21,532 nucleotides of DNA, from IMG/VR virus record IMGVR_UViG_3300017782_000270, positions 1 through 21,532 of that record; one strand, written 5' to 3'. The position numbers and the translations under genes were made by a program. This DNA is from a virus. The notes under the pieces were generated by a model. It was not told where the DNA came from. It saw only the letters and a list, made by a program, of their open reading frames with translations, and made no database searches. Of this stretch, positions 1 to 21,532 are shown one piece after another. Position 1 is the stretch's first letter; each line of letters starts with the position of its first letter.

Positions 1-75
1 TAACAACCTCCTATAAACCACTTTACACAGGAATAATGGCCTTAATATCAATTAGTTATACTCTTAAATATGAAA
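1..75. repeat. Left terminal inverted repeat (75 bp)
   Basis: Bases 1-75 match the reverse complement of 21458-21532 at 71 of 75 positions. Bases 1-32 and 44-75 are perfect, and the four mismatches (33, 34, 39, 43) all fall in the 11-bp centre. Similarity stops at base 76. The arm holds the start region of the plus-strand ORF at 36, with AGGA just before the ATG. Its frame is open back to base 3, so the coding sequence could begin outside the window. Read outward, the arm ends in AGGAGG followed by TTGTTA, a strong ribosome-binding-like sequence pointing out of the window. It may be a genome or segment end, an inversion site or a mobile element end; the sequence alone does not decide. Confidence 0.93.
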
Positions 76-260
76 TTTCTATTGCTCCTGAGTATAGGTT
101 TTCTAAATGTGGAAAATGTTTTAATATTAAAACAGGTCGGCAAATAAAAAAAGTTTGCAATAATGGGTGTATTGGATATTCTATTAGAGGTAAATTCAAA
201 TCATTGAAATATCTAAGAGGTTTTTTGCGTAAAATAGAAAAATCTAATTGCCCTTTTTAA
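36..260 (+). CDS. Small Cys-rich NUMOD4-like protein
   Basis: This is the only convincing plus-strand gene, at 74 codons. It has four cysteines (C25, C28, C41, C45) in a CGKC...CNNGC arrangement, then GYSIRGKFKSLKYLRGFL. The pattern of a short strand, KTGR, a GY strand and a terminal helix resembles the NUMOD4-type DNA-binding modules found beside HNH nucleases, and small proteins common in Bacteroidota phages. No nuclease motif is visible, so a DNA-binding or zinc-binding role is inference. The first 13 codons lie in the terminal repeat. The reading frame is open to base 3, so the ATG at 36 (AGGA five bases upstream) is the best visible start but not a certain one. Its 3' end overlaps the opposing holin-like gene by 17 nt. 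Confidence 0.6.
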   Translation: MALISISYTLKYEISIAPEYRFSKCGKCFNIKTGRQIKKVCNNGCIGYSIRGKFKSLKYLRGFLRKIEKSNCPF

Positions 261-18377: not shown

Positions 18378-18746
18378 TTATTGTGCGTAATTTGGCTTTA
18401 CTGGTTTATGTTTTTCAATCATTTTATATTTAATCCTTAAAGTCTCCTCAATTGTATCGTCTTGTTTCCATCTCTTTGAGCAAAACCATAAAACATCATC
18501 AAATAACATATCTTTATCTCTAAGATGCTCTATTAACCTTCTTCTTATGCTTTTACTCATTCCTATATAAACCAATTGATCTTTATAAAAAAGATGGTAT
18601 ATACCCAATTTATCTGGTATAATCTCTTTTCCAAACAGATAATATACCTGATCTAGATTAAACGGAACTCCAATAACATTACCATCTACAATAAAAGGAT
18701 TTGATTTACTTATTCCTTTCAATAATTCTTTTCCTATATATTCCAT
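18378..18746 (-). CDS. GIY-YIG endonuclease, free-standing
   Basis: A 122-residue protein with GIY at 48-50 and YIG at 60-62, a basic stretch (KSIRRRLIEH, about 65-74), Glu at 100-101 in IEETLRIKYK, and the family-typical N-terminal-to-tail ending HKPVKPNYAQ. These are the catalytic residues of GIY-YIG nucleases. It has no extra DNA-binding domain, and no intron or intein is seen around it, so it is a free-standing gene between terminase and portal. It may be a homing-type nuclease that spreads itself, or a nuclease acting on packaging or host DNA. Confidence 0.82.
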   Translation of the reverse strand: MEYIGKELLKGISKSNPFIVDGNVIGVPFNLDQVYYLFGKEIIPDKLGIYHLFYKDQLVYIGMSKSIRRRLIEHLRDKDMLFDDVLWFCSKRWKQDDTIEETLRIKYKMIEKHKPVKPNYAQ

Positions 18747-19154: not shown

Positions 19155-19343
19155 TTAACTCAACATGTTTTTATAATATCTATTCTTTGCGCTTCTAAAG
19201 CTTATGAAATCGCAATGAGGCTCTTTTATTCCTGTGTTTTCTCTAAATTTATTTACTGCGTCATGATATCGTAGAACTTCCGTTTTTTCTCTAGAATCTT
19301 CAAATAATTCAAGAATTAATTCAAATGATGTTTTTAGCTCCAT
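19155..19343 (-). CDS. Small helical protein of unknown function
   Basis: A 62-residue protein, mostly helical, with two charged helices (ELKTSFELILELFEDSREKTEVLRYHDAVNKF described by pattern, and FRSAKNRYYKNM). Its ATG overlaps the terminase stop (TAATG), which suggests translational coupling to terminase. Position and size would allow a packaging accessory role, but it does not show a recognisable small-terminase helix-turn-helix. Confidence 0.5.
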   Translation of the reverse strand: MELKTSFELILELFEDSREKTEVLRYHDAVNKFRENTGIKEPHCDFISFRSAKNRYYKNMLS

Positions 19344-21046
19344 TAGTTTAATATTGTTATGCCTATATCAGATGTTTTTTCATCCTGCTCTCGGTGATTT
19401 CTTTCTGTTTCTGCCGTTAAATATGCTGAGACAATATCTATTTTGTTGTGACCTCCTTCTTTTGTGGGAAAGTAATCTCCTTGGTCGCCAATCTTCATAA
19501 CGACGTTTGAAAAATGCCATCTTGTCACCGGATTTTTAAAGAAGTGATACTGTTTTTTTTCCAAAGCTGCCTCTGCTGTTACGACTGCCGGACTTAATTT
19601 GTAACCCTGTGCGGTTGGTGTACAAATCTCCTCATAGCCAGCCTTTGCAATCGTGGTTATCACTCCTGAATAAGCATATTTAACGTCAAAGCCAACACCC
19701 TTAACGTTTACTTTCTTCATAAATTCTAAGGCTTTATCAGAAACAATATCATGATCAATTACGTTTCCCGGATGAACTATTAGCCATCCCTCCTCATTCC
19801 ATTTTCTATAATCAACATGATCTTCTGTACTGTTTAGTTTGTCCTCTGGTATATGTGACTGAACATAATAAGCATGTACCCCCTTTTTAATGTTTGGAAA
19901 CAAATAACCAATCGCTGTTATATCTTTAGCCTTAGATAAATCAATGCCCGTATAACACTCTTTCCCCAATAAATCATCATAACTTATATCGTGTTCGTTT
20001 TCGTTAATCACCCTACTGTCAACCCATGTCACAGCCGAATCAACCCACACGCCACAATTTTTAATTTTAACAGATGCCATTGTTGCACCTCCTTTATTTT
20101 TAGCGTCTTTAATTCTATCATCTAGATAGCTACGCATTGTCTTAGAGTAAGGAAGCATCGGATTTGCTTTTTCGTAAAATTCTGGATTATCCCAGTCTTC
20201 CTCCTTATCTTGCTCGTATAGTAAGGCTAGAAACCTGTCATTATCTATTACTCCATCGAGAATTTTTATTGATTCCTCTCTAAATACTGTATACAGAGGC
20301 CAGTTTTTATGGACGCCTGGGCTACTAATAATCAAACCCAAAGGGTTCATTCTAGCCCCCTGCCCTGACTTCATTGTTTCAATAAGCAAAAGGTGTTCTG
20401 TCTCATGTAGTTCATCGATTACGTACATTGAAGGGTTACCGCCATCACCCGGATCTTTGGGCATTGCTTCAATTTTACCTTCTTTTTCAACATCTTTTAG
20501 AAATATTTTATTTGCCTCCCCTCCGTGGTATCTTATGTGTAAGCTATTATTTAAGAGTTCTTGAAGGACTGGACTTTTTTCTATTAATCTTCCTGTTTGT
20601 CTAGTGCAGATTAAAGCCTGTTCTCTACTGTTTGCCCCTTGCATAATCATTGGAAAGTCGTCTAGACCGGCTATTAATTCATATAAAGATATTGCTGCGG
20701 CATAAAACGTTTTTGCGTTTTTTCTAGCAACTTGTAAAAGCATTTCTTTAAATCTTCTTTCACCAGATTCTTTGTAATAAAATCCGTAAATCTGTTGAAG
20801 CCAAAAGGCATGCGGCAAAGGTAACTTTACAGGCTTCTTTAATTCAGGTACATAAATTATCTTTTCAAACCAAAAAGTTATTTTTTCAACTTCAATAAGG
20901 TTGAAAATTAAATCATCTCTAGTAAGGTCGTGCTGAAATCTTTTGCATGCTTTTTTTATAAACTCACATGATATTATTTTACCATCTATTACTTTTTGTG
21001 AATAAATAAATGATTTTGTTTGTTTTACTTGTTTTGATATTTCCAT
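19343..21046 (-). CDS. terL: Terminase large subunit (HK97-type, Terminase_1)
   Basis: A 567-residue packaging motor and nuclease. The ATPase half has an adenine/Q-like region near the start, a Walker A-like QVARKNAKT (105-113) and Walker B MYVIDE (207-212, with D211 and E212). The nuclease half has the acidic residues expected for an RNase H-like fold: D369 (GIDLSKAKD), D454 (GFDVKYA) and D547 (NKIDIVSAYL). Length and order are typical of the Terminase_1 family. It lies just after the HNH gene (5-nt gap), consistent with a cos-type packaging set, and its stop overlaps the next small gene. No small terminase is seen beside it. Confidence 0.95.
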   Translation of the reverse strand: MEISKQVKQTKSFIYSQKVIDGKIISCEFIKKACKRFQHDLTRDDLIFNLIEVEKITFWFEKIIYVPELKKPVKLPLPHAFWLQQIYGFYYKESGERRFKEMLLQVARKNAKTFYAAAISLYELIAGLDDFPMIMQGANSREQALICTRQTGRLIEKSPVLQELLNNSLHIRYHGGEANKIFLKDVEKEGKIEAMPKDPGDGGNPSMYVIDELHETEHLLLIETMKSGQGARMNPLGLIISSPGVHKNWPLYTVFREESIKILDGVIDNDRFLALLYEQDKEEDWDNPEFYEKANPMLPYSKTMRSYLDDRIKDAKNKGGATMASVKIKNCGVWVDSAVTWVDSRVINENEHDISYDDLLGKECYTGIDLSKAKDITAIGYLFPNIKKGVHAYYVQSHIPEDKLNSTEDHVDYRKWNEEGWLIVHPGNVIDHDIVSDKALEFMKKVNVKGVGFDVKYAYSGVITTIAKAGYEEICTPTAQGYKLSPAVVTAEAALEKKQYHFFKNPVTRWHFSNVVMKIGDQGDYFPTKEGGHNKIDIVSAYLTAETERNHREQDEKTSDIGITILN

Positions 21047-21051
21047 CTAAA

Positions 21052-21426
21052 TCATAAATATAGTTTTTTTTCTTTCGCTGATTTTACATCATGGTATTTT
21101 TTAGAGACAAACCAAAGGTTTTCTATAATATCATGGCCGTATAGTCTAACCTTTTTTTTCAAATCTAAGAAATCATTATTATCGTAATTATTCGGCTTAA
21201 TTGCCGCTTCAATATTTTTTAATCTTCTTGGGATTATATGATCGACAACCGCATATTTTCCAGCTAATTGTATTACGCCTTTTTCAATCAACAATCCCTG
21301 ACAAATACCTTTATCTCTTATTTTAACCAAATATCTTTTATGCTTCCAATCTTTGCTTTGATAATATTTGTCATTACCCCTATGGCTTTGTTTTTTGACG
21401 ACTTTCTTAAATCCTATCCTTACCAT
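21052..21426 (-). CDS. HNH endonuclease-like packaging protein
   Basis: A 124-residue basic protein directly upstream of terminase. It has the HNH core: YYQSKDWKHKRYLVKIRDKG, VVDHIIPRR (D62-H63), ENLW (N103) and KKYHDVKSAKEKK (H112). HNH proteins in this position assist cohesive-end cleavage by the terminase in many HK97-like phages. Canonical members use paired CxxC motifs to hold a structural zinc; here only one Cys (C42, in GICQGLL) remains, so the zinc site looks degenerate. The ATG at 21426 is preceded by an A-rich leader and not by a Shine-Dalgarno. The inverted repeat arm ends about 30 nt upstream, so expression could start in it. Confidence 0.85.
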   Translation of the reverse strand: MVRIGFKKVVKKQSHRGNDKYYQSKDWKHKRYLVKIRDKGICQGLLIEKGVIQLAGKYAVVDHIIPRRLKNIEAAIKPNNYDNNDFLDLKKKVRLYGHDIIENLWFVSKKYHDVKSAKEKKLYL

Positions 21427-21449: not shown

Positions 21450-21497
21450 TCATAATTTTTCATATTTAAGAGTATAACTAATTGATATTGAGGTCAT
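21450..21497 (-). pseudogene. Truncated copy of the terminal-repeat ORF start (15 codons)
   Basis: On the minus strand the right repeat arm reads MTSISISYTLKYEKL and then stops at TGA (21452-21450). The first 13 codons parallel the left gene, MALISISYTLKYE. The frame is open back to the window edge. All four repeat mismatches change codons (including Ile/Arg, Ala/Thr and Leu/Ser), so there is no sign of protein-level selection on the arm. It may be a duplicate 5' end left by an inversion or duplication, or a short leader peptide before the HNH/terminase operon. Confidence 0.55.
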
Positions 21498-21532
21498 TCG
21501 TCCTGTGTAAAGTGGTTTATAGGAGGTTGTTA
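21458..21532. repeat. Right terminal inverted repeat (75 bp)
   Basis: This is the reverse-complement counterpart of bases 1-75, with 71 of 75 identical. It lies about 31 nt upstream of the HNH gene start, so the repeat arm occupies the leader of the packaging operon. Inward from the arm there is no clear Bacteroidota promoter (no TAnnTTTG), so the promoter, if within reach, is not obvious. The arm ends with TTTATAGGAGGTTGTTA pointing out of the window. Confidence 0.93.

Follow-up and report, generated by a model that had tools for sequence, protein, structure and literature searches.

The DNA analyzed here is a stretch of 21,532 nt (IMG/VR virus record IMGVR_UViG_3300017782_000270, positions 1 to 21,532), referred to below as the window. 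Its minus strand carries a late gene module (positions 244 to 21046) that comprises the gene for the terminase large subunit (19343 to 21046) as well as portal, protease, capsid, connector, tail, tape measure, fiber, and lysis-side genes. An HNH endonuclease gene (21052 to 21426, minus strand; phrog_144, E = 2.4e-10) is located next to the terminase gene, on the side of the right end of the window. Between the terminase and portal genes lies a GIY-YIG–like gene (18378 to 18746, minus strand; its match to Pfam GIY-YIG, with E = 5.5e-4, narrowly misses the curated cut-off). Judging by these similarities, the packaging region may thus contain two homing endonucleases, this one and the HNH enzyme encoded before the terminase.

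Searches of the window recognized no replication genes (DNA polymerase, terminal protein, or protein-primed replication) and found no tRNA or Rfam family. Two records related to the window by capsid and terminase (37.3 and 41.5 kb) carry roughly 15 to 22 kb of extra genes upstream of the terminase. Since the window contains late genes only while its relatives carry many further genes, it represents a fragment whose ends are not necessarily those of the genome. Of the options listed in a preliminary description of this DNA, an incomplete contig ending in a duplicated repeat is the one that the analysis supports. Its general style and published analogs suggest that the phage probably infects Bacteroidota.

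The preliminary description also reported a 75-bp inverted repeat located exactly at both tips of the window, and direct comparison confirmed it. Bases 1 to 75 match the reverse complement of bases 21458 to 21532 at 71 of 75 positions. The mismatches are confined to positions 33, 34, 39, and 43, leaving perfect blocks at 1 to 32 and 44 to 75 (a 32-11-32 layout); the probability that four randomly placed mismatches all fall within 11 of 75 positions is 0.007. Random inverted 75-mer pairs drawn from the window (up to 200,000) had on average 20.1 matches and at most 40, and a search of the record against itself returned the second copy with E = 4.9e-30. The longest exact repeat anywhere in the window is 32 bp, and the exact match between the ends is inverted (32 bp), with none in direct orientation (0 bp). 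Past base 75, there is no similarity between the two copies. Neither 32-mer has an exact match in IMG/VR; one was also searched for in GTDB genomes, likewise without an exact match.

Each of the two inverted ends is a copy of the beginning of the same small phage gene, and the copies face inward from the contig ends. Each arm of the repeat (left, 1 to 75, plus strand; right, 21458 to 21532, minus strand) consists of a 35-nt leader and the first 13 codons of this gene, which we call the anchor gene. The left copy is complete (36 to 260, plus strand), encodes 74 amino acids of unassigned function, and is convergent with the lysis-side genes. The right copy (21450 to 21497, minus strand) is truncated: a stop codon follows after 15 residues (MTSISISYTLKYEKL), and the HNH and terminase genes come next.

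Comparison with other members of the anchor gene family accounts for the diverged center of the repeat. Mismatches 33 and 34 are located just before the ATG, and mismatches 39 and 43 are in codons 2 and 3, which differ within the family (MAL, MNT, MVS, and MST); by contrast, the family largely preserves the CGKCFNxKTGRxIK core. The center is therefore ordinary gene variation. The preliminary description had likened conserved arms around a variable spacer to a recombination site. This holds insofar as a recombination-like point does exist, but it is at the outermost base of each arm (TAAC; see below), and the center is a ribosome-binding spacer with codons 2 and 3.

No family was found for the anchor gene in Pfam, PHROG, and NCBIfam searches, and neither tblastn against 50,697 phage records (E threshold of 1e-3) nor a search of genome contigs returned a match. 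The predicted structure of the 74-aa protein consists mostly of strands (pLDDT of 88) and has no significant match in the PDB. The third structural match, the HNH homing enzyme I-HmuI (E = 0.77), and the PDB sequence matches (E = 0.05) were unusable. Two further candidates found with an 18-base 5′ motif (L040 and L041) were chance matches and were discarded.

Relatives of the anchor gene (36 to 66% identical) were found in 16 IMG/VR contigs, in a single copy in each. In pairwise DNA comparisons, their homology mostly begins around −33 to −40 relative to the ATG; the DNA directly upstream of the leader is mostly unrelated between them. Contigs also tend to end there: on the 5′ side of the anchor gene, 6 of the 16 contigs end within 800 bp, compared to 0.8 expected, while none do so on the 3′ side. 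When a near-duplicate was removed, the count was 5 of 15 compared to 0.62 expected (P = 1.5e-4, which is somewhat optimistic, as are the other P values for contig ends, because the hypothesis arose after the first cases were seen). The clustering persisted when the distance threshold was varied between 200 and 1500 bp. One 30.8-kb contig, G010, begins and ends with the same 119 bp, an exact direct repeat (L050 positions 1 to 119 and the end of L055); it is probably circular, with the break just upstream of the anchor gene. Four otherwise different phages (L015, L020, L045, and L047) share a block of ~110 to 140 bp that is 73 to 85% identical, lies about 700 to 850 bp upstream of the anchor gene, and overlaps an attC-like hairpin and the start of a cassette gene.

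In one relative (L016), the bases preceding the leader (GCCACTAAC) have an exact complement one gene upstream, which prompted a test of all relatives. We searched for AAC at −31 to −35 from the ATG, took the 9-mer that it ends, and looked for an exact partner within 1000 bp, using relatives with at least 300 bp of upstream sequence. An exact reverse-complement partner (GTTNNNNNN) was found 158 to 736 bp upstream in 9 of 11 testable relatives, compared to 5.8% of 2365 control TAAC sites (P of about 3e-10). The rule failed in two relatives, one of which has just 314 bp of upstream sequence, and a twelfth (L046) has no AAC in the required range. L046 and one of the two failures (L023) do have partners for a box at −47/−48. 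The boxes vary from phage to phage (GTTAGGTGC, GTTAGTGGC, GTTAGCAGT, GTTATAAGT, and others). Since their sequences differ while the pairing persists, it is the complementarity that is conserved, as in integron cassettes, rather than one transposon end. The anchor relatives thus show the complementary box pair of a cassette, with GTTNNNN at its start and NNNNAAC at its end.

The upstream box coincides with the end of a stable hairpin in 10 of 11 relatives, the exception being L017. The median stability z score is −3.9, compared to −0.3 in controls (P = 1e-5); the hairpins are called attC-like on the basis of this score, rather than of an attC covariance model or a HattCI score. When the 70 nt immediately preceding the anchors were folded, no consistent hairpin emerged; the hairpins are located one cassette further upstream. 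The last cassette is not followed by a complete attC (a hairpin plus second box), and its end box passes directly into the leader of the anchor gene. Cargo of the cassettes in relatives includes DNA methyltransferases. In L019 (96 to 131), a cassette-like box pair ~35 nt apart with no gene in between (GTTATGGTG...CACCATAAC) is located directly before the anchor leader and is perhaps an emptied cassette.

No match to the integron integrase IntI above the TIGR02249 cut-off was obtained in 17 records, most of which are likely fragments. Tyrosine recombinases of the Phage_integrase family are present in three of these records. One of them is encoded in record G020 (L045, 10967 to 12265; 432 aa), ~1 kb downstream of the anchor gene, and is not a recognized integron integrase.

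One contig, G004, retains two forms of the same region. At its start (L054, 1 to 2088), an attC-like hairpin is followed by two methyltransferase-like genes. At the other end (the last 260 bases of L053), the same hairpin is joined directly to the sequence that follows the second methyltransferase-like gene. The junction of the forms with and without the two genes is a shared 11-mer, CGCAAAACGTT, located between attC-like hairpins, and the contig begins precisely at the AA|C of a box. The end-to-end matches in this contig are direct, not inverted, and three attC-like hairpins can be seen by eye within about 2 kb. The pattern resembles what a gain or loss of two cassettes would produce, with both forms retained in the assembly.

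The tips of the window can now be compared with this family pattern. Each tip is a TAAC (1 to 4, plus strand; 21529 to 21532, minus strand) whose AAC is at −34 from the ATG of the respective anchor copy, the cassette junction position in relatives. Both ends stop one base outside the AAC, and −34 is the commonest offset among the relatives. The window itself shows no cassette, box, or hairpin because the contig ends at the junction. In our best reading, the window covers the late portion of a larger siphophage genome and has an anchor at either end. The ends are probably two cassette anchors with cassettes outside of them, the assembly having broken where the cassettes vary or repeat. The ends of the window would then most likely be a variable docking site, rather than physical ends of the virus genome.

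In the mechanism that we propose, the anchor leader would be the fixed edge to which integron-like cassettes, often with DNA methyltransferases in relatives, attach, with the AAC at about −34 as the junction at which recombination may act. The DNA outside the window would consist of cassettes that either vary in the population or are repeated between the two anchors, so that assembly would stop at both anchors at the same base. If each anchor carries varied cassettes, the shared sequence should end at about GTTA and continue into variable bases, regardless of the k used for assembly. If the two anchors share their outer DNA, an assembly with a k of 33 would also stop at the same base, the exact block being 32 bp. 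We prefer varied cassettes over shared outer DNA, since the former predicts the end base from independent data; both place the contig ends at a cassette anchor. The relatives, which show one anchor each and never two, count against a reading with two anchors, and the two relatives that fail the box rule and the lack of an integron integrase match above the cut-off likewise speak against our reading. A wider proposal, which we regard as tentative and rather doubtful, is that a family of phages, probably infecting Bacteroidota, carries a dedicated cassette dock, in which the leader of a small conserved gene is the fixed end of an integron-like array with methyltransferases and other cargo; that the cassettes would be exchanged by a host enzyme or another recombinase, with no integron integrase encoded by the phage; and that two such docks flank the late module here.

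A plain assembly break would explain the ends as a longer inverted duplication with no cassette role, in which a de Bruijn assembler with a k of 33 stopped k − 1 = 32 bases in at both ends. The outer exact block has just this length, which is also that of the longest exact repeat in the window, and a break of this kind would yield identical ends; the 119-base direct repeat at the contig ends of another relative likewise has an assembler-k-like length, with k deduced from the repeat. A break at an arbitrary duplication does not, however, predict that both ends land on the cassette junction of the family, and we consider it unlikely, if a serious competitor. That the late module is bounded by inverted copies would also fit a 21-kb invertible segment or mobile element with inverted recombination sites, and homologous recombination between the 75-bp copies is possible in principle. 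However, the copies differ at four central positions and so offer no matching crossover core, no tyrosine recombinase was found within the window, the relatives have a single anchor, and the repeat corresponds to the 5′ part of a gene, which makes such an element very improbable.

Least probable of all is a genuinely linear genome or segment bounded by terminal inverted repeats, an option that was raised in the preliminary description and would fit repeats located exactly at both ends. We do not favor it because the window has late genes only, no DNA polymerase or terminal protein for protein-primed replication was recognized in it, and relatives carry many more genes; moreover, CheckV found >90% completeness for only 33.2% of the contigs that have inverted end repeats (PMC8116208). 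Two cassette anchors at which the assembly stopped are the explanation that we retain as probable.

The 74-aa gene can serve as a marker for cassette docks in uncultivated phages and helps to explain assembly breaks at these sites. If the docks are confirmed, they would represent one route by which such phages exchange anti-restriction genes such as methyltransferases, and the window would be a warning that inverted contig-end repeats can be points of biological variability, not genome termini.

The window would fall into the CheckV class of contigs with inverted terminal repeats (PMC8116208), as it has an inverted repeat of ≥20 bp at its two ends; it differs in that its genes mark it as a fragment and its repeat coincides with the 5′ end of a gene. 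Variable methyltransferase and homing endonuclease genes in near-identical phages are already on record: in the metagenomic islands and flexible gene modules of cryoconite phages, methyltransferase, homing endonuclease, and terminase genes are located in variable regions of otherwise stable phages (PMC7468147). In those phages, however, homologous gene variants are swapped, and the portion of that report considered here mentions no complementary boxes or attC-like hairpins. The closest parallel is offered by phage-borne CALINs, clusters of attC sites without an integron integrase, such as that of Polaribacter phage P12002L with its methyltransferase cassettes; in an attC × attI suicide conjugation assay in E. 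coli, IntI1 used five of the six phage attC sites examined (PMC9892861). Like these clusters, the anchor relatives have complementary end boxes, attC-like hairpins, and methyltransferase cargo, and no integron integrase was found in them. A brief search of a limited body of literature found no published description of a conserved anchor gene at an array edge or of two inverted anchors. Thus, while phage-borne cassette clusters are already known (PMC9892861), what is new is the conserved 74-aa gene that, with its leader, marks the edge of the array and is present in the window in two inverted copies.
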